From: Ancylobacter tetraedralis
GTDB lineage: Bacteria; Pseudomonadota; Alphaproteobacteria; Rhizobiales; Xanthobacteraceae
Direction: 5' to 3'
Assembly: GCF_014195655.1 (NCBI RefSeq)
Contig: NZ_JACICD010000006.1
Location: 248,001 to 312,000, forward strand
Length of the DNA: 64,000 nucleotides
Under the pieces are notes generated by a model. That model did not search any database. It saw only the letters and a program-made list of their open reading frames with translations, and was not told where the DNA came from. Below, one piece after another: positions 1 through 11,511 of this stretch. Position 1 is the stretch's first letter, and each line of letters begins with the position of its first letter. The translations under genes were made by a program, and so were the position numbers.

Positions 1-981
1 TCCGACAATGTTGCTGAGCACGGCCATGATGATCAGCATCGACGGCGGGTCGTGAAGATTGAGGCCAATGCCCCGCAATCCGGCGAGAACCTGTTCCGGC
101 AGCCCCGTCGCCGTGAGCGCCGCATTGACGACGAACAGTCCGAACAGCAGGAGGAGGAGATCGCCGTTGACGTGATGCAGCAGATTGCTCGACGCGAAGC
201 GCCGGCTGACGAGCAGGACACTCGCGCCCATGAGGGCGATCAGCATATGGGGCAAGTCGCTGAAGATGAACGCTGCGACGACGGCACTGGCGACCAGGCA
301 CGTCTTGACCGTCTCGCCACGATTGAGGGCGACAGGCGCAGTGGCGACACTGGCGGTCGAGGGTTGCGCGTCGCCGGCGAGTTCCCATCGGCCCCGATAG
401 CAAAGCACGATCACGATCCAGATCACGGGCAGGCCAAGCACGGCCACGGGCGCGGCGGCCGCCATGAAGCCGCCGAAGGAGAGATGCAGCGTCTCGGCGA
501 CGATCATGTTCTGCGGACTGCCGAGGATCGTTGCCGCGGAGGCGAAGTTGGCCGCGAAGCAGAAGCCGAGCAAAAAGGGCAGCGGGTTGAGCCGTCGCTC
601 CACGCAGATGGAGCAGAAGATCGGCGCCATCGCGACCGCCACGACATCCTTGTTCAGCAAAGCGGCCATGGCGCCGGATACGGCAATCAGGATCGCCAGC
701 AGCCCCTTGGGGCCGACATTGAGGTTGCCGACTTTCACGGCCACCCAGTCATAGAAACCCGCAACCACGAAGGCTGCGGAAATCGTCATCAGGCCGAACA
801 GCAGGCCGATCACGCGATAGTCCACCGCGGCCCACGCCGCCGCCGGCGAAATCTGCCCCAACGCGATGAGCACCATCGCGCCAACCGTGGCAGCACCGGT
901 TCTGTCGAGGCGAAAGCCCGGCAGATGGCCGACGCCCATGGCGAGGTAAACCAGAACGAAGATCGCGAGCGTCAGGTCCAT
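1..981 (-). CDS. SLC13/ArsB/NhaD-type anion permease, 3' end cut by the window edge
   Basis: Seen: 327 codons are open from an ATG at 981 to the window edge, with no stop. About nine or ten long hydrophobic segments are visible, the first beginning MDLTLAIFVLVYLAM. A central NKDVVAVAMAPI stretch and a later GSPQNMIVAE motif (re-entrant-loop type) are typical of the ion transporter (IT) superfamily. Known: this superfamily includes arsenite, Na+/H+ and Na+/dicarboxylate or sulfate carriers. Context: it lies 130 bp after amtB on the same strand, but a strong hairpin between them suggests it may be separately transcribed. The substrate cannot be told; the C-terminal part is missing. The SLC13 and ArsB branches remain equally possible. 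Confidence 0.75.
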   Translation of the reverse strand, partial: MDLTLAIFVLVYLAMGVGHLPGFRLDRTGAATVGAMVLIALGQISPAAAWAAVDYRVIGLLFGLMTISAAFVVAGFYDWVAVKVGNLNVGPKGLLAILIAVSGAMAALLNKDVVAVAMAPIFCSICVERRLNPLPFLLGFCFAANFASAATILGSPQNMIVAETLHLSFGGFMAAAAPVAVLGLPVIWIVIVLCYRGRWELAGDAQPSTASVATAPVALNRGETVKTCLVASAVVAAFIFSDLPHMLIALMGASVLLVSRRFASSNLLHHVNGDLLLLLFGLFVVNAALTATGLPEQVLAGLRGIGLNLHDPPSMLIIMAVLSNIVG

Positions 982-1021
982 GGGGGCAAGGGCATCGGTC
1001 GGTGGCACGGGTAAAACACGG

Positions 1022-1111: not shown

Positions 1112-2353
1112 TCATTTCGGGTTGCCGCGATCCATGTTCCAGAAATTGAAGGCGCGCTCGCCATAGAGCGGCCTGTCGAGCCCTTCCTGCTGAATGGTAT
1201 CCGGCACCCGCAGCACGCCCAGCCCATCCAGCACCTTCAGCAGGACATAGGTGACGATGCCGGCATAGGCCGCGACGACCACGACCGCGAGAAACTGGAC
1301 GCCCAGCTGATGAACGCCGGCCGACACCTGGTTGATGTGCGAACTCGCCAGCACGCCGATCAGCAGAGCACCGGTCATGCCGCCAACGCCGTGCGCCCGC
1401 CAGACCTCGAGGGAATCGTCGATCTTCAGCCAGCTCTGGACATGCTTGGCATGATAGCAGGCGGTGGCGCCGATGGCGCCGATGAGCAGGGCGGACATGG
1501 GTTCGACATAACCCGAGGCGGGAGTGATGGTGGCCAGCCCCGCCACGGCGCCGACCAGCACACCGGAGAAAGAAGGCCGGCCGCTCTCCCGCCACTCCCA
1601 GAACATCCACACGAGCATGGCGATGGAACCGGCCAGCATGGTGTTGGTGAAGGCATAGGCCGCCAGCGCATCCGCCGCATAGGCGCCACCCGCATTGAAG
1701 CCGAACCAGCCGAACCACAGCAGGCCCGCGCCCAGCGCCACCAGCGGCAGGCTGGCCGGCTCGGATTCGTTCTCGCCGGGAGCGAGCTTGCGCTTGCCGA
1801 GATAGGCCGCCGTCACCAGCGCGGAGAAGCCCGCCGCCGTGTGGATGACGATGCCGCCGGCGAAATCGACCACACCCAGCGTCGCGAGGAAGCCGCCGCC
1901 CCAGATCCAGTGAGCGGCCGGCAGGTAGACCAGGATGGTCCAGAAGGCGATGAAGAAGAGATAGGCGCCGAAGCGGAACCGCCCGACGAACGCGCCCGTC
2001 ATCAGCGCCGGCGTGATGATGGCGAACATCATCTGATACGCGAACACCATGATGAAGGGGATGTTCGGCCCGTAGGTCGGATTGGGCTGGATGCCGACAT
2101 GGTACATGCCGAAATAGGGCACGATGCTGCCGATGACGCCGCCGATGTCCGGCCCGAAGACGAGGCTGAAGCCGCCGAACACCCAGATCAGACCCACCAC
2201 GCCCATGCAGACGAAGTTCTGGATCATGATCGACAGCATGTCGCGCTGCTTGACCAGGCCGCCATAGAACAACGCCAGCGCGGGGGTCATCATGCACACC
2301 AGGGCGGTGCACAGGAGAATGAAGGCGGTATCGCCCGCATTGATTGCTTGCAT
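1112..2353 (-). CDS. amtB: Ammonium transporter
   Basis: A 413-residue Amt/Rh family channel for ammonium in the inner membrane. Seen: about eleven hydrophobic segments. The two conserved pore histidines appear in HTAAGFSALV and in HGVGGMTG. The N-terminus starts directly at the first membrane helix (MQAINAGDTAFILLC), with no cleavable signal. A GGGGAA ribosome site precedes the ATG. Context: last of the urease cluster, 125 bp after ureT. No glnK/glnB PII gene is adjacent, unlike the usual glnK-amtB pair, which fits a specialised copy linked to urea use. Inference: it recaptures ammonia released by urease, or exports the excess. Confidence 0.95.
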   Translation of the reverse strand: MQAINAGDTAFILLCTALVCMMTPALALFYGGLVKQRDMLSIMIQNFVCMGVVGLIWVFGGFSLVFGPDIGGVIGSIVPYFGMYHVGIQPNPTYGPNIPFIMVFAYQMMFAIITPALMTGAFVGRFRFGAYLFFIAFWTILVYLPAAHWIWGGGFLATLGVVDFAGGIVIHTAAGFSALVTAAYLGKRKLAPGENESEPASLPLVALGAGLLWFGWFGFNAGGAYAADALAAYAFTNTMLAGSIAMLVWMFWEWRESGRPSFSGVLVGAVAGLATITPASGYVEPMSALLIGAIGATACYHAKHVQSWLKIDDSLEVWRAHGVGGMTGALLIGVLASSHINQVSAGVHQLGVQFLAVVVVAAYAGIVTYVLLKVLDGLGVLRVPDTIQQEGLDRPLYGERAFNFWNMDRGNPK

Positions 2354-2478: not shown

Positions 2479-3492
2479 TCACGTTGCCTTCGTGGACAGG
2501 GGCGCCTCCGCGTGCTCATGGCCGATCATATGGCCTGCCACCGGCTGGTGCGGATGCGGGGCGAGGAGCTTTTTCGGCGCGATGAACAGATACATCGTCA
2601 AGACGTAGGGAGCGGTGAACGAGGGAATGCCCGCCGGCGCGACGATCACGTCGAGAGCGCCTTGCACGAAGACGGTCGTCACGGTCGCCAGCAGCGCATA
2701 GACAACCACTTTCGGCGAGGTCTTCAGGAAGATGACGCCGACGGCCAGGGCCGTGAGCACGGGGCTGAACCCGTACAGACCCTGGCTGACGATGGCCGGG
2801 TCGGCCCCCATGGCGATCGATACCACCATAGCGATGAGCGAGCCGGCGGCGGCGGCGATGCCTGCCGGAATCGAGGCGATGAAGATACCAGCGAGGATGA
2901 TCGCGCCGGAGATCTCATCGCCGAGCAGATAGACCTGGCCGATGTTGCGGAAGAAGATCTGCACCAGTTCGAGCGGCTGGGGAAGGGGCGCGAACCCCTG
3001 CACATAGTCGGTGGCGAGCTTTGGCGCATCGCCGGTGACGTGAAGCCCGCCGAAGGAGTAGGCGCCGGCGACCATCAGCCAGCCCGTCAGCACGAATGGC
3101 CCGGTCGAGCCGGGAATGCCCCACTTCGCGGTCAGCGTTGCGCTGAACGCGGCGGTGATGACCGTGCTCGCGGCGGCGCCGACCACGACATAGACCCAAA
3201 GCTGGGGCGAGGCGGCGATGAAGGTCGGCAGCGCGGCGCCGACGAGGACTCCGTTGAAACCGAAAAGACCCGAGGCGACCGATTTCTCGTCGCAGTCCAG
3301 CAGGCGTGCCGTAAGCGTCGCGACGACGACGCCGATCGCCGCGCCGATCGTGGTCGCCCACACGCCCGAGACGTAGGACGCATAAGCCATCGCGACGAAG
3401 AACAGGATCCCCGTCACAGGATTCTCCATGAAGAAGACCTGACTGGTCCCCTTGAGAATCTCGGTTACGACGTTGCTTTTCTGTTTGGCCAT
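2479..3492 (-). CDS. ureT: Urea transporter (UT family)
   Basis: A 337-residue membrane protein of the urea channel family. Seen: FMENPVTGILFFVAM near residue 18 and FGFNGVLVGAALP near residue 70 match the UT-type repeat. The second half contains a related repeat (GLYGFSPVLTALAVG). The C-terminus is short, soluble and His-rich (HPHQPVAGHMIGHEH). Start: the open frame extends upstream, but the ATG at 3492 (MAKQKSNVV) is chosen because the longer version would run into ureD. Context: between ureD and amtB, as I recall for the Brucella ure2 operon. Role: facilitated entry of urea to feed the urease encoded upstream. Confidence 0.9.
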   Translation of the reverse strand: MAKQKSNVVTEILKGTSQVFFMENPVTGILFFVAMAYASYVSGVWATTIGAAIGVVVATLTARLLDCDEKSVASGLFGFNGVLVGAALPTFIAASPQLWVYVVVGAAASTVITAAFSATLTAKWGIPGSTGPFVLTGWLMVAGAYSFGGLHVTGDAPKLATDYVQGFAPLPQPLELVQIFFRNIGQVYLLGDEISGAIILAGIFIASIPAGIAAAAGSLIAMVVSIAMGADPAIVSQGLYGFSPVLTALAVGVIFLKTSPKVVVYALLATVTTVFVQGALDVIVAPAGIPSFTAPYVLTMYLFIAPKKLLAPHPHQPVAGHMIGHEHAEAPLSTKAT

Positions 3493-3508
3493 GGCTTTGG
3501 TCTTTCGG

Positions 3509-4444
3509 TCAGCGCCAAAGAAATTCCTGCGGAAGTGTCCGGCCGCGCGCTTCCTCCCGGACGATGCGCCAGAACCGGCGCACCTCGTTGCGCACGTCAT
3601 AGGTCTCCACGCCCACCGCACGCAGCATGAGGCCGGCGTCATTGGGAAGGCGGCAGACGCCCGAAATGGCGCGCGGCGCCTCGGCCGGAAAATTGGTTTC
3701 GAACCGCTCCTTGATGCGGGCGGCCACCGGCGGCGGCGTCAGGCACAGGATGTTGGCGAAGGCGTCGTAGCCGCGCATCACCGCCGGATAGTCGACGGAT
3801 GGATCGCCCTTCTCGATCAGGATCTTCTCGGCGAAGAGCTTGCGCCCGCCCGGCCGGCGCACGGCGACGGCAACGGACAGAAGATCGAGCCCGAATCGCT
3901 CCTCGACATGGTGATGCTTGCGCCCGGCCAGCATCATCTCGCCATAGAGCAGCGTCGCGTCCTCCGCGATGACGATGTCGGTCTGGTTGATGAAGCGGGA
4001 GTCGCGGTAGGGAATGGTGAAATCAGGCAGATATTCCAGATAGGAACCGCTCTCCAACGTCACCGCCTGATGTTGCGAGGCGTAGTTCGCATCCATCCGG
4101 TGGACACGGTTGGCGCTCTGCGTCGTCACGTGGGCGCAAGCCCCCTCGCCCACGGATATATCGATCTTGTAGCGGTCGCCCTGGAGGATGCCGCCGCCGA
4201 TCGAGATGATCGAGCAGATCGGCAGTTCCGGCATCGCCTCGTCCCAATAAAGCGCCTGCTGCACGAGCAGCGGCGCCACGCGGTAAAGATCGTGCAGAAT
4301 CGATCGCCCGTCGCGCAGCGAAAAGCCAAGACGCAACTCGCCGACCTTTCCGGGCGCGGCGGCGCGCATCTGGGCCGGCTCCGTCTTGAAGTCGCGCAGT
4401 TCGCGCGCCGCGTCGAGGCGACGGAGTTGCTCGTGGAGCGCCAT
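3509..4444 (-). CDS. ureD: Urease accessory protein UreD
   Basis: A 311-residue member of the UreD/UreH family, the scaffold that binds apo-urease and recruits UreF and UreG for nickel insertion. Seen: the conserved core includes GGGILQGDRYKIDISVGEGA, TTQSANRVH and YLPDFTIPYRDSRF, with the family's later GEMMLAGRKHH block. Length is slightly above the usual 260-300 residues, with a charged N-terminal extension. It starts 3 bp after the ureG stop. Placing ureD after ureG rather than before ureA is typical of the Brucella-type ure2 arrangement. Confidence 0.95.
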   Translation of the reverse strand: MALHEQLRRLDAARELRDFKTEPAQMRAAAPGKVGELRLGFSLRDGRSILHDLYRVAPLLVQQALYWDEAMPELPICSIISIGGGILQGDRYKIDISVGEGACAHVTTQSANRVHRMDANYASQHQAVTLESGSYLEYLPDFTIPYRDSRFINQTDIVIAEDATLLYGEMMLAGRKHHHVEERFGLDLLSVAVAVRRPGGRKLFAEKILIEKGDPSVDYPAVMRGYDAFANILCLTPPPVAARIKERFETNFPAEAPRAISGVCRLPNDAGLMLRAVGVETYDVRNEVRRFWRIVREEARGRTLPQEFLWR

Positions 4445-4447
4445 GCC

Positions 4448-5095
4448 TCAGGCATCCACCTTGGCGGGCGGCGTTACCTTCACGTCGAACAGCGCCATGT
4501 CGAGGATGAGACGGATCAGCTCATCGATGCCTTCGCCGGTCTTGCAGTTGGTGAAGATGAACGGCTTCTTGCCGCGCATCAGCCTGGAATCGCGGTCCAT
4601 GACCTCAAGGCTCGCGCCGACATAGGGGGCGAGGTCCTTCTTGTTGATGACGAGAATGTCGGACTGGCAGACACCGGCGCCATTCTTGCGCGGAATCTTG
4701 TCGCCCGCCGCGACGTCGATCACGTAAATATAGAAGTCGGCCAGCGCCGGGCTGAAGGTAAGGGTGAGGTTGTCACCGCCCGACTCGATCAGGATCACGT
4801 CGCTGTCGGGGTACTTCTCCTCCAGCTCCTCTACCGCGGCGATGTTCATCGACGGGTCTTCGCGCACGGCGGTGTGCGGACAGGCGCCCGTCTCGACACC
4901 GACGATCTTCTCCTCGACCAGAATGCCGTTCAGGGTGCGGCGGACCTGCTTGGCGTCCTCGGTCGTCACCACATCGTTGGTGATGATCAGCGGCTTGATG
5001 CCGAGATCGATGAGCCGCGGAGTGATGGTCTCGATGACCGCGGTCTTGCCGGAGCCGACCGGGCCGCCAATGCCGATACGCGTGATTTTCTTCAT
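4448..5095 (-). CDS. ureG: Urease accessory GTPase UreG
   Basis: A 215-residue SIMIBI-class GTPase that powers delivery of nickel to urease. Seen: P-loop [13 protein letters not shown] at residues 9-21, the nickel-binding [11 protein letters not shown] motif near residue 92, ESGGDNL near residue 123, and the guanine-specificity motif NKKDL. Length is close to the family norm. Context: directly between ureF (27 bp gap) and ureD. It has no N-terminal His-rich extension, so nickel storage in this system is probably carried by the UreE tail. Confidence 0.97.
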
Positions 5096-5122: not shown

Positions 5123-5845
5123 TCAATTCATGAACAGGCGGACATGGGTGGTCGTGTGGTGTGCGACGAGCACGTCGAAGACGGGCGCGAAGGATGCCAT
5201 TTCGTCGAGCGAGAGATCGCGCACGGCCTGATAATCGCCTTCGACGCGCCCCTGCGCCGTGAACAGGATTCGCTGCGTGTCGATATGATCGATACGCATG
5301 AGCCGCAGCGCCGCGCTCAGGATCATCGAGGCAATGCCATATTGATGCATGACGAAGGCCTCGACCTCGTCGACGCCCATATGGGCGAGCGCAATCGCCT
5401 GGCCGATGGGAAGGCAGCCCGGCGTCGCATTTGCCTTGATGTCGTCGAGCCAGCTCTCAAGCGTGGGGGACGGCATGATCTTCAGCACCAGCTCGGCGAA
5501 TTTCTTGCCGACGCGGGTCAGCATCAGCTGCTGTTCCTCGCCGACACGGCGGCAGAACAGTTCACTGTCCGCGATGAGGATCGCCTCGTAGTCGCCGGAC
5601 AGCGCGGCGCGGTGGGCATGCAGCAGCGCGATGCCGTCCATGCGCGCCGTCTGCCGCAGGATGAGGTCGACATATCTGAGCAGGCTCTCCGGGTCGGAGA
5701 CGACGCCGGTCTGCAGGGCCGATTCGAGCCCGTTGGAGAAGGCAAAGGATCCGATCGGCAGCGTGGAATCCGAGAACTGCAGCAGGCGCGCCAGATGCAC
5801 CATGCCGGAAGGATTGCCAAGCTTCCCCATGCCCCCGTCCGTCAT
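5123..5845 (-). CDS. ureF: Urease accessory protein UreF
   Basis: A 240-residue, mostly helical protein that forms the UreD-UreF-UreG activation complex. Seen: LLQFSDSTLPIGSFAFSNGL near residue 20 is the UreF signature. HQYGIASMILSAALRLMRI lies in the C-terminal third. Start: the ATG at 5845 overlaps the ureE stop (TGATG), so translation is probably coupled. A GTG three bases earlier is the alternative. The residues before LARLLQ vary among UreF proteins. Confidence 0.93.
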   Translation of the reverse strand: MTDGGMGKLGNPSGMVHLARLLQFSDSTLPIGSFAFSNGLESALQTGVVSDPESLLRYVDLILRQTARMDGIALLHAHRAALSGDYEAILIADSELFCRRVGEEQQLMLTRVGKKFAELVLKIMPSPTLESWLDDIKANATPGCLPIGQAIALAHMGVDEVEAFVMHQYGIASMILSAALRLMRIDHIDTQRILFTAQGRVEGDYQAVRDLSLDEMASFAPVFDVLVAHHTTTHVRLFMN

Positions 5846-6519
5846 CACTTCACCGGCGCATGTGTGTGGCCGACGGCGTGCGGATGGTCATGGTCATGGT
5901 CATGATGGTGGCCATGGTCGTGGTCGTGGCCGTGCGCGTGACCGACGGAATGTCCATCGGCAGGAGCACCGTGATGATGGTGCGGCGTCGCGTCGGCCCC
6001 GGCGAAGAGCAGGCGCACTTCCCGGGCGTCCAGCTTGGCGGCGATCTCCTCACCCGGCGCGAAATGGGTCTTCACATGCTCGAAGGCATGGGTGCGCATG
6101 ACCGACGCCATTACCTTCTGGTCGACGGACAGCGGAACATAAACCGTGGAACCCTTGATCACGGCCGGCCAATGCTGGTTTCCAAGCCCATGACCCAGCT
6201 CGAAACAGGTGCGCAGGATCTCGGTCGGCGACAGCTTCTCGAGGCCTTCCAGCTCGATGACCAGGACGTCCTTGAGTGCGATCCGGGCCGCGACGATCCG
6301 CTTCGCCGCCTCGTCGTAGTGCAGGACGTCGCCATCCTGCAGGTGCTCGGAGCGCGGAAGCGAGATGGCGAGTTCCACCCCGCCACCCGTTGCCTTGCGC
6401 AGCCGGCTCTTCGGTGCCTCCCACTGCTCCAGCACCAATAGGTCGACCGCGGCAGACCGCGCCCGCTCCTGCCAGACCGGATCACGGAGATTACCGAGCG
6501 TGCTCTCGACGAGAATCAT
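5845..6519 (-). CDS. ureE: Urease nickel metallochaperone UreE with long His-rich tail
   Basis: A 224-residue nickel chaperone. Seen: an N-terminal UreE peptide-binding region, a central metal-binding domain (ELGHGLGNQHWP; TAHAFEHV-like MRTHAFEHVKTHF), and a C-terminal tail from about residue 177 with 19 histidines alternating mainly with Asp and Gly. Known: such tails bind several Ni2+ ions and act as a store. Context: follows the two crcB genes by 24 bp and overlaps ureF. The tail is longer than in many alphaproteobacterial UreE proteins. No nickel transporter is visible in this window, so the tail may matter for nickel buffering. Confidence 0.95.
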   Translation of the reverse strand: MILVESTLGNLRDPVWQERARSAAVDLLVLEQWEAPKSRLRKATGGGVELAISLPRSEHLQDGDVLHYDEAAKRIVAARIALKDVLVIELEGLEKLSPTEILRTCFELGHGLGNQHWPAVIKGSTVYVPLSVDQKVMASVMRTHAFEHVKTHFAPGEEIAAKLDAREVRLLFAGADATPHHHHGAPADGHSVGHAHGHDHDHGHHHDHDHDHPHAVGHTHAPVK

Positions 6520-6543
6520 GTGTGTCTCCCAGGAAACTCGGCT

Positions 6544-6927
6544 TCAGGCGCGACGCAGTTGCGTCGCGACGCGAAGGCCGAGCCATGTAACGCTGTAGCC
6601 GATGACGAGACTGGCGATGACATAAAGCAGGGAAAGGCCCAGCTGACCGGGGGTCGCCATCTCCGAATAAGCCCCGTAGATGAAGGTCGAAAAGGTGGAC
6701 ATCCCGCCGCAAAAGCCGGTCGAGACCAGCAGCGTGACGTTGTTCGACGCGTGACCGGCCCGATGAAGTCCGAAGATGAGACCGAGCAGGAACGACGCGA
6801 GAACATTCGCCGCGAAGATGTCGATGGGAAAGGCGGAGCTGTAGCGCCCCAGCATGAGCATGGACAGTTCGCGGGTAATCGCCCCGACTCCCCCACCCAC
6901 AAACACGTTGACCACCGGCAGCCACAT
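6544..6927 (-). CDS. crcB: CrcB/Fluc fluoride channel subunit, copy 1
   Basis: A 127-residue, four-helix membrane protein of the CrcB/Fluc family, which exports F- as dual-topology dimers. Seen: GGGVGAITREL at the N-terminus (conserved Arg), the polar-track Asn in IFAANVLASFLLG, and the Phe-box GGMSTFSTF with both phenylalanines. Context: the second of two adjacent crcB genes (9 bp gap), lying inside the urease operon between ureC and ureE. Inference: it forms a channel with the neighbouring, divergent copy. Co-expression with urease is implied by tight same-strand spacing. No fluoride riboswitch was recognised ahead of it. Confidence 0.92.
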   Translation of the reverse strand: MWLPVVNVFVGGGVGAITRELSMLMLGRYSSAFPIDIFAANVLASFLLGLIFGLHRAGHASNNVTLLVSTGFCGGMSTFSTFIYGAYSEMATPGQLGLSLLYVIASLVIGYSVTWLGLRVATQLRRA

Positions 6928-6936
6928 CGCCGCGCC

Positions 6937-7320
6937 CTACACTCTCGCCAGCGCCACGCCGGCCGCCGCGGCGACAAGGCCGGCACCAACGGAGCTAACC
7001 AGATAGGCCAGTGCGAGGGCATGCCGCCTCGCCGCCGCCATCTGCACGGCATCGAGTTGCATGGTGCTGAACGTGGTATAGCCGCCGAGCACGCCCGTCA
7101 AAACCAGCGACGAGACGACGTCGCCGTAGCGGTGCTCCCATCCCAGCGAGAGCGATGCGGCGAGATAGGCGATCACGAAGGCGCCGGAGACATTGATGAC
7201 GAAGGTCCCCACCTTGAACGGGGTACCAATGCGCCGCTCTATGAACTGGCCAACCTGCCAGCGCAGCAGGGAGCCGATCCCGCCTCCCAGCCCCACCCAC
7301 AGGATGTCGATTGCGTCCAT
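6937..7320 (-). CDS. crcB: CrcB/Fluc fluoride channel subunit, copy 2
   Basis: A 127-residue four-helix Fluc homologue, clearly diverged from copy 1. Seen: GGGIGSLLRWQVGQF, GTFVINVSGAF (polar-track Asn) and GGYTTFSTM. The second Phe of the FSTF box is replaced by Met here, while copy 1 keeps both. Known: paired crcB genes in some bacteria encode heterodimeric channels in which each subunit supplies complementary pore residues. Inference: the pair works as a heterodimer. Context: 61 bp after ureC, with a hairpin in the gap, and 9 bp before copy 1. Confidence 0.9.
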   Translation of the reverse strand: MDAIDILWVGLGGGIGSLLRWQVGQFIERRIGTPFKVGTFVINVSGAFVIAYLAASLSLGWEHRYGDVVSSLVLTGVLGGYTTFSTMQLDAVQMAAARRHALALAYLVSSVGAGLVAAAAGVALARV

Positions 7321-7342
7321 CTGCTATATGCCATCGAGTTGA

Positions 7343-7367
7343 TGTGGAGGGACGCTGCCCCTCCACA
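7343..7367 (-). promoter_or_regulatory. Intercistronic hairpin between ureC and crcB
   Basis: A perfect 9-bp stem (TGTGGAGGG / CCCTCCACA) with a 7-base loop occupies the only sizeable gap within the urease operon. No U-tract follows on the minus strand, so it is more likely an mRNA-stability or attenuation element than a full terminator. Confidence 0.45.
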
Positions 7368-7381
7368 ATCCGATGCAAGGC

Positions 7382-9100
7382 TCAACTGAAGAAGTAGAGC
7401 TGGCTGAGCGGGAGACGCGTTGCCGGCTCGATCGTGGCATGCGTGCCATCGACCGTCACGGCGAACGTCTCGGGATTGACCTCGATCACCGGCAGGGCGG
7501 TGTTGCGCACCATCGAGCTCTTGGTAATCGTGCGCGTGCCATAGACCGGCACGACCTGCGACTTCAGCTCGTAGCGATCCACGATGCCGGCCTCGAAGGC
7601 CGCATGCGATGTGAAGGTCACGCGGGTCTTGGGCAGTGCCGAACCCATCGCGCCGAACATCGGCCGATAGATCACCGGCTGGGGCGTCGGCAGCGAGGCA
7701 TTCGGATCGCCCATCAGCGCCCAGGAGATCATGCCGCCCTTGATCACCATCTTCGGCTTGGCGCCGAAGAATGCCGGCTCCCAGAGCACGAGGTCGGCCA
7801 TCTTGCCGATCTCGACGGAACCGATCACATGGGCGACGCCCTGCGCGATGGCGGGGTTGATCGTGACCTTGGCGACGAAGCGCAGGACACGTTCATTGTC
7901 GTTGCCGGACGTGTCGCCCTTGTAGGCTCCCATGCGCTGCTTCAGCAGGTCGGCGGTCTGGATCGTGCGCGTCCAGTTCTCGCCGATCCGCCCCATCGCC
8001 TGGCTGTCGCTGGAGAGGATCGAGATCGCCCCGAGATCATGCAGTACGTTCTCGGCCGCGATGGTCTCGGCCCGCACGCGGCTCTCGGCGAAAGCGACGT
8101 CGGTCGGGATCTTCGGGCTGAGATTGTGACAGATCATCGTCATGTCGAACAACTCGGCCTGGGAGTTGATCCCGTAAGGCAGGGTCGGGTTGGTCGAGGA
8201 GGGAATGACGTTCGAGAGTCCCGCCACCCGGATGATGTCCGGCGCATGGCCGCCGCCGGCGCCTTCGGTGTGGTAGGTATGGATCGTGCGCCCTTCGAAG
8301 GCGGCGATCGTGTTCTCGACGAAGCCGGCTTCGTTCAGCGTGTCGGTGTGGATGCAGACCTGGACGTCGTAATTGTCCGCAACCGTGAGCGCGTTGCGGA
8401 TCGCGGCCGGCGTGCTGCCCCAGTCCTCGTGGATCTTGAGGCCCATCGCGCCGGCACGGATCTGCTCCTCGAGCGGAACAGGCGCCGAGCCGTTGCCCTT
8501 GCCGAGCACGCCGGCATTCACCGGCCAGGCATCGAACGACCGGAGCATCATCTCGATGTTCCAGGTGCCGGACGTGATGGTGGTGCCGTTGGTGCCGTCG
8601 CTCGGCCCGATGCCGCCACCGAACACGGTGGTGACGCCGTTGGAGAGCGCAGCCTGCGCCTGCTGCGGCGAGATGTAGTGGACGTGCGCGTCGATGCCGC
8701 CGGCCGTCAGGATGAGATGCTCGCCCGAGATCGCATCCGTGCCCGGTCCGAGCGCGAGGCCTGGCGTGACACCCGACATGGTGGACGGATTGCCGGCCTT
8801 GCCGATGGCGCAAACCAGGCCGTTCTTGATGCCGACATCGGCCTTGATGACACCCTGCACCGCGTCGACGATGGTGACATTGGTGATGACGAGATCCGGA
8901 GCGCCCGCGGCGCTGGTAAGCTCGTTGTCGTAGCCCATGCCGTCGCGAAGTGTCTTGCCGCCGCCATAGACGGCCTCTTCGCCATAGACGCGCAGATCCT
9001 TCTCGATCTCGATATAGAGATCGGTGTCGCCGAGACGGATCTTGTCGCCGGTCGTGGGACCATAGAGGTCCGAATATTGCTGCCTCGAGATCTTGGCCAT
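7382..9100 (-). CDS. ureC: Urease alpha (catalytic) subunit
   Basis: A 572-residue amidohydrolase that splits urea at a dinuclear nickel centre in the cytoplasm. Seen: metal ligands in HVHYISPQQ, the carbamylated lysine at residue 222 in [38 protein letters not shown], the mobile-flap Cys in MICHNLSPK, and the Asp ligand in [12 protein letters not shown]. Every recognisable catalytic residue is present and length matches the family (about 570). A GGAG site lies 8 bases before the ATG. Context: 33 bp after ureB. The Ni site is a known target of fluoride inhibition, which makes the adjoining crcB genes notable. Confidence 0.98.
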
Positions 9101-9133
9101 CTCAGAGCTCCATTACCTGAATGTTGCGGGCCA

Positions 9134-9544
9134 TCACGACTTGCTCTTGAATCCGTAGCGCTTCGCGCGCTCCAGGGCGTCGGTCAGGCGCGGGCGGTAA
9201 TCGTCGTAATTCTCATCGCCCACCCAGCCATTGACGAGGCCATTGAAGCCCAGCACGCGCTGCTTGCCCTGAAAGGGGACGAGCACGACCTCCTTCTCGT
9301 CGCCCGGTTCAAAGCGCAGGGCCGTGGTGGCGGGAATGTTCAGCCGCTTGCCGAACGCCTGCTCACGGTCGAATTCGAGCGAGGCATTCACCTCGAAGAA
9401 GTGGAAATGCGATCCAACCTGAATGGGACGGTCCCCGGTGTTGCGAACCTTCAAGGACGTGGTTGGATAGCCGGCATTGATCTCGATATCGCCCTTGCCG
9501 AGGACGAGCCCGCCGACCGGAGCCTTCTTCTGGTCACTGCTCAT
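9134..9544 (-). CDS. ureB: Urease beta subunit
   Basis: A 136-residue structural subunit of the urease trimer. Seen: [17 protein letters not shown] and the C-terminal [19 protein letters not shown] are family hallmarks. [20 protein letters not shown] lies between. A GAGGG site precedes the start. The C-terminal tail is about 30 residues longer than the shortest enterobacterial UreB and ends in basic residues. Separate ureA and ureB genes, rather than a fused ureAB, are the usual proteobacterial state. Confidence 0.97.
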
Positions 9545-9564
9545 GATGACAACCCTCGCCGCTG

Positions 9565-9867
9565 CTACTTGATGGGATTGTGCACGGTGACGAGACGGCT
9601 GCCATCGGTAAACACAGCCTCGACCTGTACATAAGGGATCATCTCCACGACACCGTCCATGACGTCGTCGCGGGTGATTGCCTTGCTGGCCAGTTCCATG
9701 ACCTCTTCGACGGTCTTGCCGGCGCGCGCCCCGTCCAGCGCTGCAACCGAGATCAGCGACACCGTTTCAGGATGATTGAGTTTCAGTCCCTGATCCTTAC
9801 GCTTCTGCGCGACCTGAGCGAGCGTGTAGATCAGGAGCTTGTCGATTTCCCTGGGCGTAAAATGCAT
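9565..9867 (-). CDS. ureA: Urease gamma subunit
   Basis: A 100-residue subunit, exactly the usual length. Seen: [20 protein letters not shown] at the N-terminus, [14 protein letters not shown], and the C-terminal [20 protein letters not shown]. Start: the frame is open 12 codons further upstream, but the ATG at 9867 is chosen because it gives the conserved N-terminus and has a GAGGA site 9 bases before it. First gene of the operon; its promoter must lie in the long intergenic region above it. Confidence 0.97.
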
Positions 9868-10635
9868 GAGCCAATTCCTCGACGAACGCGGTCCTCCGAC
9901 CATGCCGTAGTGGCAACGCCGGCTCGATCTGCGAGATCGTGAACTTTGATAGCAGCCCCCCCTACGGCGACACCAGCCTTAACTAGTGCAGTCAGAAAAT
10001 TATCCGAGATACAAATAAGCAGCATGCTCAAATATCAGGATCCGCAATGAAGAGTGAGCGAGGCGCGCACCGCGATTAATCCGGGTTATATATTTAGTTT
10101 GAATGTCACCCTCTCTAATTCAGCTGAACATGGAGGTATTATAAGATATATCAACTTGTGGATTTCACTGCTGCCAGCGCAGTTGCGATTGCGCATTTTC
10201 GCGACCGCGCGGATCCCGACAACCCTGGGTACCGGCGGCGGGCGCAGGGGAGCAGCCCACTCCGGTAGCTCATTGCGACCACCCGGGAGCGTTACTCTTG
10301 CGCCGGTGGGACCCAAAGGGCTCAGGCGGATACAGACCGGCGGCCACCTTCTTCCCGCGCGTGGAATTGGCGTCCGGCGGCACGACGTAGTCGGGCATCC
10401 CGACAAACCGCCCCCCACACATCCAGGCAAGGAGGCCCTTCACGGGATCATCGCGCCAACATCCTACCCGCATTCATATTTAGGTCGGCATGGCGACCCA
10501 TTCGATTGGATGTCTCTAAGGCGGCTATTTATGTCGCATCGCGATAAGTGAGAAATCTCACTCCACATTGACTGGTCATCGATGTGATCGGTGCTGCATA
10601 ACGGCCAAGAAGTAAGCGACGTGTAGGCTGGAAAC
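9868..10635. other. Long intergenic region between ureA and the LysR gene
   Basis: 768 bp without a gene I can support. An AT-richer stretch (about 9970-10170) probably holds the urease promoter, but no clear -35/-10 pair or sigma-54 element could be fixed. The GC-rich part (10200-10480) contains short open frames on both strands, for example 67 codons on the minus strand at 10270-10473 that include VVPPDANSTRGKKVAAGLYP. They match nothing I recognise and may be a gene remnant. Confidence 0.5.
10547..10562. promoter_or_regulatory. Inverted repeat upstream of the LysR gene
   Basis: AGTGAGAAATCTCACT has perfect 6-bp arms and a 4-bp centre. It lies 74 bp before the LysR start and toward the urease promoter. 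LysR proteins often bind dyads in such a position; a role in autoregulation is inferred only. Confidence 0.4.
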
Positions 10636-11511
10636 ATGCAAAAGCAGGGCAATCTCATCGATAGCGATGAGTTGCGGGCGTTTGATGCTGTGGCGACGAG
10701 ACGCAGTTTCAGCCTCGCGGCTGTGGACGTCGGAACCTCTCAATCCACGGTCAGCCAGCGGATCGCCCGCCTCGAAAGACGGCTCAACCGCAGGCTCGTT
10801 CACCGCACCACCCGCAAGGTGAGCCTCACTCCCGATGGAGAGGCCATGCTGATTTATGCCCGGTCGATTCTCGCGCTTTCCGAGGAAGCGCGTCTTCGGC
10901 TTACCCGCCCCGGGCTGAAGGGCGTCCTCAAGGTTGGTATCGAGGACGAGTTCGCCAGAACCCGGCTGCCGGAAGTCCTCGGCATCTTCCGCACGCAATT
11001 CCCGGATTTCGGCTTGAAGTTCATCACCGGCCGCAACGAGCATCTTCACGATGTGCTGCGCTCGCATGAGGTCGACGTGATTCTGGGCAAGAGCCATGGC
11101 GAACCGGATCAAACCGCGCTGTGGCAGGAGCAATTGGTCTGGATCGGGCACCACTCCTTGCTGTTGAAGCCTTCGGATCCGGTACCGCTCATCTCCTACC
11201 TCAAGCCGAGCCTCACCCGCTCGCTGACGGAGAGCGCGCTCGTGGCAAACCGCCGTCCGTGGATCGACGTGGCGGAATGCAGCAATCTGCTTGGTGTGCT
11301 TGCTGCCGCGCGATCGGGCCTCGGCGTCATGGCGATCGGCCAGAGTTTTCGGAGAACGGTTCTGGAAGAGATGCCCGCCGAGGCGGGCCTGCCGGGTCTG
11401 GGCAAGCTGACCTATGTCGTCGAATGCAACTCCGCCGATGTCGGCTCCGCCGCAGACGCCTTTCGCGACGTCCTCAGTGAAGTGGCGAAGCGCGCGACCG
11501 CCGGGCTTTAA
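10636..11511 (+). CDS. LysR-family transcriptional regulator
   Basis: A 291-residue LTTR. Seen: N-terminal winged helix-turn-helix (LRAFDAVATRRSFSLAAVDV, then SQSTVSQRIARLERRLNRRL, residues about 12-50), followed by a periplasmic-binding-like effector domain starting near residue 95 (GVLKVGIEDEFARTRLPEVL). The effector half is typical in length. Context: divergent from the urease operon across 768 bp. It could regulate urease, but the distance is large and the effector unknown. It resembles other LysR genes next to unrelated loci, so the link is weak. Confidence 0.9.
   Translation: MQKQGNLIDSDELRAFDAVATRRSFSLAAVDVGTSQSTVSQRIARLERRLNRRLVHRTTRKVSLTPDGEAMLIYARSILALSEEARLRLTRPGLKGVLKVGIEDEFARTRLPEVLGIFRTQFPDFGLKFITGRNEHLHDVLRSHEVDVILGKSHGEPDQTALWQEQLVWIGHHSLLLKPSDPVPLISYLKPSLTRSLTESALVANRRPWIDVAECSNLLGVLAAARSGLGVMAIGQSFRRTVLEEMPAEAGLPGLGKLTYVVECNSADVGSAADAFRDVLSEVAKRATAGL

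Follow-up and report, generated by a model that had tools for sequence, protein, structure and literature searches.

Two fluoride-channel genes inside a urease operon of Ancylobacter tetraedralis and relatives, with a plausible role in urease protection

In the accessible parts of the published accounts, paired fluoride channels of the Fluc (CrcB) family are described as heterodimers with opposite charge bias, and both La1 and La2 are reported to be required for transport (PMC3755343); heterodimeric Flucs are said to be rarer in Gram-negatives (PMC11139923). In each Fluc pore, Phe80 and Phe83 come from different subunits (PMC4969038), the F83M and T114A forms of Ec2 are reported as non-conducting, and the La and Sa heterodimers keep three of the four Phe residues (PMC5636608). 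For the eukaryotic FEX protein, the available text gives SSFSSM in the N half of the yeast protein, one working pore, and a 120-fold loss of function when the TM2 Thr is changed from T to V (PMC5417652).

Fluoride inhibition of nickel urease, which the first-pass annotation of this DNA took as known, is established in print in the accessible text of two sources (PMC7433671, PMC7244745). Two F- bind at the urease nickel centre and replace the bridging and a terminal ligand (PMC7433671). At 1 mM, NaF stopped ureolysis both in K. pneumoniae and with jack bean urease, and below 1 mM the isolated enzyme was partly inhibited while K. pneumoniae bacteria were unaffected (PMC7244745), which fits cells keeping F- out. 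Moreover, weak acid accumulation is reported to raise F- inside cells when the pH is low (PMC11139923).

A close published counterpart is the urease locus of Laribacter hongkongensis, where the only numbers between the urease tags LHK_01035-01037 and LHK_01040-01044 are LHK_01038 and LHK_01039, which are two crcB genes given as camphor resistance in a resistance table and text (PMC3125207); thus, a ureC-crcB-crcB-ureE layout is implicit in the published numbers. In the accessible text of that paper the authors make no remark tying the crcB genes to urease (PMC3125207), and that of a further Laribacter paper names no crcB (PMC3135505). The first-pass annotation knew of no description of such a layout, and this impression holds in part: a search of the open-access literature, with few subscription journals covered, found no crcB-urease connection, and the accessible text of papers on Corynebacterium, Helicobacter, groundwater and Yersinia/Photorhabdus that mention both urease and crcB contains no operon link, but the layout was already present, unremarked, in the Laribacter locus tags. 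The L. hongkongensis cluster resembles the locus described below in its two crcB tags between urease tags, and a Laribacter MAG shows the layout directly; unlike our locus, the L. hongkongensis cluster is reported to be flanked by adi and hdeA.

Layout of the operon and its conservation

The window (the whole 64,000-nucleotide stretch of Ancylobacter tetraedralis DNA that was analyzed) carries on its minus strand the gene order ureA-ureB-ureC-crcB1-crcB2-ureE-ureF-ureG-ureD-urea channel-ammonium channel, as read from ORFs and Pfam/NCBIfam matches:

9565..9903, minus strand: ureA, urease gamma subunit (PF00547)
9134..9544, minus strand: ureB, urease beta subunit (PF00699)
7382..9100, minus strand: ureC, urease alpha subunit, 572 aa (89% identical to an annotated Roseomonas urease alpha)
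7343..7367, minus strand: hairpin in the ureC-crcB1 spacer, without a T tract (exact pattern found once in the genome)
6937..7320, minus strand: crcB1, Fluc subunit with an FSTM box, Met replacing the second Phe (ORF, Pfam, loop charges, structure model)
6544..6927, minus strand: crcB2, Fluc subunit with the full FSTF box and loop charges opposite to those of crcB1 (ORF, Pfam, alignments)
5845..6519, minus strand: ureE, nickel chaperone with a His-rich tail (PF02814)
5123..5848, minus strand: ureF (PF01730)
4448..5095, minus strand: ureG, GTPase family, cobW/HypB/UreG nucleotide-binding (PF02492)
3509..4444, minus strand: ureD (PF01774)
2479..3642 (longest ORF), minus strand: urea channel, Yut/UT family (PF03253; TIGR03441 over cut-off)
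1112..2353, minus strand: ammonium transporter, Amt (PF00909)
1..984, minus strand: SLC13/citrate-transporter-family permease, continuing past the window's left edge (PF03600 over cut-off; start placed by similarity)

Judged by eye, the true start of the urea channel gene is probably near 3492. Both crcB genes are complete ORFs of 127 aa each, separated by 61 bp (ureC-crcB1), 9 bp (crcB1-crcB2) and 24 bp (crcB2-ureE) according to the ORF coordinates, so that the first-pass report of two tightly spaced crcB genes between ureC and ureE is exact to the base. Its statement that an accessory gene normally follows ureC directly also held, with ureE ∼14 bp downstream in G731, which has no pair, and ∼15-100 bp downstream in the Microvirga, E. 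albertii and Hafnia plasmids. The operon contains ureABC, then ureE-F-G-D in that order and a urea channel downstream, as in a Yut-type urease operon; it shares gene order and UreC type (68.7-68.8% identity) with the Yut-type operons (ureABCEFGD-yut) of the E. albertii and Hafnia plasmids, which, unlike it, have no crcB between ureC and ureE. Brucella ure2 likewise differs, the locus tags of its paper giving eight contiguous genes, ureABCEFGDT, with no crcB between them. As to the flanks, the permease at the left edge is found beyond that edge at L149 11743-12984, an SLC13-annotated permease comes after amt on the Roseomonas plasmid, and another lies within the Providencia cluster. A LysR-type regulator gene on the plus strand (10636-11511) has 79-83% identical copies in the urease operon's 20-kb stretch of G006, G007, G025, G026 and G495, making its product a candidate regulator of the operon.

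A consensus scan of positions 6400-10700 found no promoter-like site (1.0 expected) and one terminator-like site, inside the crcB1 coding sequence (2.3 expected). A transcription break inside the operon was considered and rejected, since no promoter-like or terminator-like site falls in the crcB junctions. Given this and the close spacing, the pair is likely to belong to the operon and to be co-transcribed with the urease genes. Stems directly after ureC were seen in 10 of the 12 operons folded (Roseomonas and G731 had none); for eight of them fewer than 20 of 300 simple base shuffles were as stable, and for G019 and G026 the counts were 21 and 56. Across nine aligned sequences, 87.2% of cells pair at the hairpin versus 46-67% when the alignment is slid, with weak covariation (a single pair with both partners changed, and 142 of 500 shuffles scoring as high). 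A terminator was rejected for want of a T tract, and we read the structure as a processing or stability hairpin, which may determine how much structural gene mRNA there is relative to accessory gene mRNA, similar stems being present with or without crcB (e.g., in Providencia and G019). Control by a fluoride riboswitch was likewise rejected, with no RF01734 match in the genome at E values up to 0.001 among the 150 of 1050 first-look candidates scored. The only Rfam match in the window at the gathering threshold is 5_ureB_sRNA (RF02514; 8650-8945, plus strand, 70.3 bits), antisense to the ureC coding sequence, and it may merely reflect conserved coding sequence.

To describe the distribution of the layout, 15 same-type urease operons were examined, which were gathered partly through crcB itself and hence form a biased sample that gives no frequency estimate. 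The pair occupies the ureC-ureE site in eight of them (the window, G006, G007, G025, G495, G602, the Roseomonas plasmid and, on a contig that starts within ureC, the Laribacter MAG) and the far end of the urease cluster in one (Providencia plasmid). In two more, decayed remnants are left at the ureC-ureE site (G019, the 3' part of crcB2; G026, a short crcB1-like start identified by eye), and the remaining four, with their flanks read, have no crcB (G731, with 2 kb of left flank, and the Microvirga lotononidis, Escherichia albertii and Hafnia alvei plasmids). These remnants (L109 10200-10520; L110 10480-10860) show that two genus members have lost the pair naturally. When genomes were found via ureC alone, 6 of 30 in the genus had this urease type, four with the pair and two with remnants, and among five plasmids listed with UreC at least 68% identical, one had the pair at ureC-ureE, one at the far end, and three had none.

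Wider searches gave a patchy picture. A phylum sample of 396 genomes yielded 49 ureC rows at an E value of 1e-225, and 40 of the 48 non-window rows were fetched (G008, G809, G1016, G710, G780, G848, G796 and G327 being left out); crcB was found in none of these 40 urease neighbourhoods of 14-20 kb each (G731 plus 39 at 59-62% identity), the crcB profile having found 11 control pairs, most of them also in its seed, and being blind to the G019 and G026 remnants. Among these 39 is the second urease of the window's genome (L205), with no crcB in the 20 kb read. At an E value of 1e-14, crcB1-like matches occurred in 22 of 385 class genomes, that is, the window and 21 others at 32-42% identity, and these 21 had no urease-gene match within stretches of 2-3 kb. 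A window-like crcB1 was present in 6/296 genomes of the family, 4/30 of the genus, 2/398 of the phylum (the window and G956) and 2/152 of G956's family, and among crcB1 relatives in named genomes, 1 of 52, that of the Laribacter MAG, had urease genes in the stretch examined around it. Cross-matching of crcB and ureC in the genus, done by eye, gave 73 ureC rows, 6 of the window type (95-100% identity) and 67 others; a crcB match lay less than 20 kb from ureC only in four of the six window-type rows and at the G019 remnant, and G006 had a further crcB match 17 kb from ureC. With one query protein, which may miss distant crcBs, a crcB match was obtained in 29 of the 30 genus genomes, and the window's own genome has one further match elsewhere, with a full Phe box. 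The ureC-crcB1-crcB2-ureE layout thus recurs in some other bacteria and is uncommon.

Conservation of the layout in relatives, on which the first-pass annotation had made its reading depend, was borne out, both frames being open at the ureC-ureE site in seven further loci. Comparison of the window with six relatives gave dN/dS values of 0.115-0.209 for crcB1, 0.140-0.267 for crcB2, 0.030-0.078 for ureC and 0.054-0.190 for ureE, so that the pair is under purifying selection that is similar to or somewhat weaker than that on ureE and weaker than that on ureC. Retention of the layout with open frames in seven further loci, together with dN/dS of 0.12-0.27, points to more than chance. When 119 crcB sequences were placed in a tree, the crcB1 proteins formed one group and the crcB2 proteins another (SH-aLRT 100 and 99), both separate from the sampled Gram-positive pairs, singletons and other Gram-negative pairs (Bradyrhizobium, Mesorhizobium, G009), and the genus's singleton crcBs grouped with those of named alphaproteobacteria. 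With regard to a possible single capture of the pair by urease operons, holding the window's group and Laribacter together was not rejected (p-AU 0.117; groups named after the first tree), and adding Providencia was rejected (p 0.016; groups again post hoc, with a truncated Providencia crcB1 ORF); the urease accessory tree has long branches.

The same pair family was also found away from urease. In a Brucella sp. it sits between arsenic-type genes and a P-type ATPase, with no urease genes in the 16 kb read; at this locus (L004 4587-12473) proteins of ArsC, SBF-family permease, phosphatase-type and ArsR-type by Pfam flank it. In G956 neither a urease gene nor a UT gene occurs within 18 kb of the pair. 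In G1159, whose neighbourhood shares much with that of G956, crcB1, crcB2 and a UT-family urea channel gene lie in that order on one strand (L148 8168-9999, minus strand), with 92 bp between the pair and the channel gene (Pfam 178.4 bits versus 25; NCBIfam Yut 173, below the cut-off of 274.6); the 20 kb read gave no match to a urease gene. G1159 is a second setting tying this crcB pair to urea, and it could be a remnant of a larger urease cluster or reflect a direct partnership with the urea channel.

Family, fold and pore residues of the two subunits

Both proteins belong to the Fluc family, and conduction of F- by the pair is predicted from sequence. They score 76.3 and 83.2 bits against Pfam CRCB PF02537 (cut-off 32.9) and match solved Fluc chains in phmmer searches. 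No NCBIfam CrcB cut-off was reached among the best 25 matches listed: crcB2 scored 152.9 against 153 for NF002455, short by 0.1 bit, crcB1 scored 92.5 against 129 for NF010791, and TIGR00494 gave 65.0 and 75.4 against 80.45. We take these cut-offs to be narrow thresholds; the same family is indicated by Pfam, by the fold and by the matches to solved Flucs. AlphaFold modelled crcB1 with a mean pLDDT of 92.5 and a helix break at residues 81-82, corresponding to the TM3 break, and in Foldseek its ranks 1-31 were all Fluc structures (TMq 0.78-0.87); the Fluc fold of four TM helices with a broken TM3 is thus assigned from the model for crcB1 and from sequence matches to solved Flucs for crcB2.

Twelve pairs were compared, from the window, G006, G007, G025, G495, G602, the Roseomonas marmotae plasmid, the Laribacter MAG, the Providencia rettgeri plasmid, Brucella sp., G956 and G1159. 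With loop borders set by us, the K+R loop bias is opposite in 11 of the 12 (in the window, -4 for crcB1 and +2 for crcB2), and the loop charges predict that loops 1 and 3 of crcB1 are inside. The exception is Providencia (-1 and 0), where the crcB1 ORF is truncated to only 97 aa and its partner is divergent (L112 11574-12336), so this plasmid pair may be decaying. The box reads F-S-[ST]-M in every crcB1 and F-S-[ST]-F in every crcB2 (12/12 each), with FSTM and FSTF in the window's two copies as first annotated, and the crcB1 stop and crcB2 start are 8-10 bp apart in the eight loci read. A fixed antiparallel heterodimer of crcB1 and crcB2 is therefore well supported by these sequence comparisons, and the heterodimer suggested by the first-pass annotation gains from the charge bias, the paired boxes and the constant gap; its companion idea, that the two copies complement each other, fares worse, as the published work, in the parts accessible, suggests one dead pore.

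Residues were assigned to the two pores by our own inference from the published Fluc and FEX papers. The conserved Asn of crcB1 (residue 43) is kept in 12/12, and in crcB2 the Asn and both Phe positions are unchanged in 12/12. The position of T114 is Ala in all 11 crcB1 proteins that reach it in the joint alignment. The pore that would combine the first Phe of crcB1 with the second Phe of crcB2 has both Phe residues and the Asn, Ser at the H106 position in 12/12, Tyr at the S102 position in 11/12, and a beta-branched residue at the T114 position in 10/12 (Gly in G025, Ala in Roseomonas). In crcB2 the TM2 Thr position is Ile in 12/12, so that neither pore appears fully canonical; the Phe box and the T114 position fit one dead pore, and the TM2 Thr is lost on the other side. 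The putative heterodimer perhaps has one working pore.

The pair resembles the Gram-positive La and Sa Flucs, as far as these are described in the accessible text, in adjacent genes, opposite charge bias and a Phe box that is intact at three positions of four, the remaining one being Met or Leu. It differs in lying inside a urease operon and in that its clades are separate from the Gram-positive pairs sampled in the crcB tree (which does not include La or Sa) and from other Gram-negative pairs. The accessible FEX account offers a similar likeness in a two-domain, single-barrelled protein, one half having FSSM and the other keeping the second Phe, and the functional pore combining the first Phe of the FSSM half with the second Phe of its partner (PMC5417652). 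Unlike FEX, the window has two genes rather than one fused gene, crcB2 retains its first Phe but lacks the GT of the TM2 motif, and TM4 of crcB1 retains Tyr and Ser.

Proposed urease protection and its alternatives

The explanation that we put foremost, and consider evenly balanced between right and wrong, is that a heterodimeric fluoride channel is co-made with urease and protects it from fluoride, above all in acid. crcB1 and crcB2 would be oppositely oriented subunits of one channel made from the urease operon transcript, the first and second Phe of each pore being contributed by different subunits. The pore built on the first Phe of crcB1 and the second of crcB2 would have a full Phe box together with the Asn and the Tyr/Ser track of crcB2; the other would have Met for the second Phe and Ala where Ec2 requires a beta-branched residue, and by analogy with eukaryotic FEX it is probably vestigial. 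In acid surroundings HF would enter and be trapped as F- in the near-neutral cytoplasm at the very moment when this urease is called for, together with its urea and ammonium channels, and F- leaving through the channel down the membrane potential would keep the dinickel centre uninhibited. Acid genes do occur near related ureases (hdeA/hdeB in Hafnia; adi and hdeA in Laribacter), and F- accumulation at low pH, the urea channel and such neighbours favour a fluoride exit co-expressed with an acid-type urease.

Several observations count against urease protection. Two of the six same-type operons of the genus (G019 and G026) lost the pair and kept their urease genes, four same-type operons have no pair, and the pair also occurs away from urease; moreover, a further crcB, complete in its Phe box, already exists elsewhere in the genome, no crcB lies in the 20 kb read around the second urease, no fluoride riboswitch was matched among the candidates scored, and K. 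pneumoniae ureolysis was reported to be unaffected below 1 mM NaF. Because the pair has been lost without the urease genes and is found elsewhere, the main rival is that it is a working heterodimeric fluoride channel carried as general stress cargo in a mobile operon, with no special urease link, and kept for whole-cell fluoride or acid tolerance (enolase, pyrophosphatase). The Brucella sp. setting, with arsenic-type genes on one side and a P-type ATPase on the other, the occurrence in G956 without urease, the persistence of urease genes after pair loss, two operons on plasmids and the patchy distribution all speak for such cargo, but we think it rather unlikely, in view of the identical ureC-ureE site in Laribacter and the window's group, the pair in the Providencia urease cluster and beside the urea channel in G1159, and the absence of crcB from the 40 other urease neighbourhoods; in addition, with a crcB match in nearly every genome of the genus, a general channel is mostly present already. 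G1159 also suggests a second and weaker rival, in which HF, small and neutral like urea, may leak in via UT-type channels and the pair would return it as F-; on this view it is the urea channel that accounts for the pair's presence in urease operons. The window's operon and the eight other pair-bearing operons do each have a yut annotation or a UT-family match, and G1159 has the pair followed by a UT-family gene without a urease gene match, but its protein falls below the NCBIfam Yut cut-off, G956 has the pair without a UT gene, and four operons have UT without the pair, leaving this idea improbable.

Two further readings seem more improbable still. Metal fluorides inhibit GTPases, and fluoride with Al3+, Be2+ or Mg2+ could mimic phosphate and freeze the UreG GTPase while urease matures, in which case the channel would protect nickel insertion rather than the completed enzyme; the pair lies directly before ureE-F-G-D and UreG is of the cobW/HypB/UreG nucleotide-binding family, but direct fluoride inhibition of the mature urease is what the accessible sources document (PMC7433671, PMC7244745), and we give this version very little weight. 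Equally slight is the probability that the pair has drifted, being non-conducting for fluoride or conducting another anion: each possible pore departs from Ec2 or FEX requirements and two genus members hold decayed remnants, whereas dN/dS against the window stays at 0.12-0.27 and the Asn and both Phe positions are unchanged in all 12 crcB2 proteins.

Taken together, the gene layout is confirmed and conserved, and protection of urease by the pair is plausible. More broadly, we suggest tentatively, and with somewhat less than even confidence, that some urea-handling operons have built in a dedicated fluoride exit, a bacterial heterodimer mirroring the asymmetry of eukaryotic FEX; the pair itself is found inside urease operons, at the far end in Providencia, and beside a urea channel without urease in G1159. 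If true, this would be genomic evidence for fluoride as a natural threat to urea metabolism, either by urease inhibition or by HF entry through the urea channel, and the G1159 arrangement raises the question of whether urea channels admit HF. Urease inhibition by fluoride has so far been known from enzymology and dental plaque work; a fluoride channel co-made with urease would be a sign that this inhibition has consequences in nature, in a form testable gene for gene, the crcB pair being a small, testable bacterial Fluc example with one apparently degraded pore. It would also point to the conditions under which this urease works, namely acid, fluoride-bearing soil or water.
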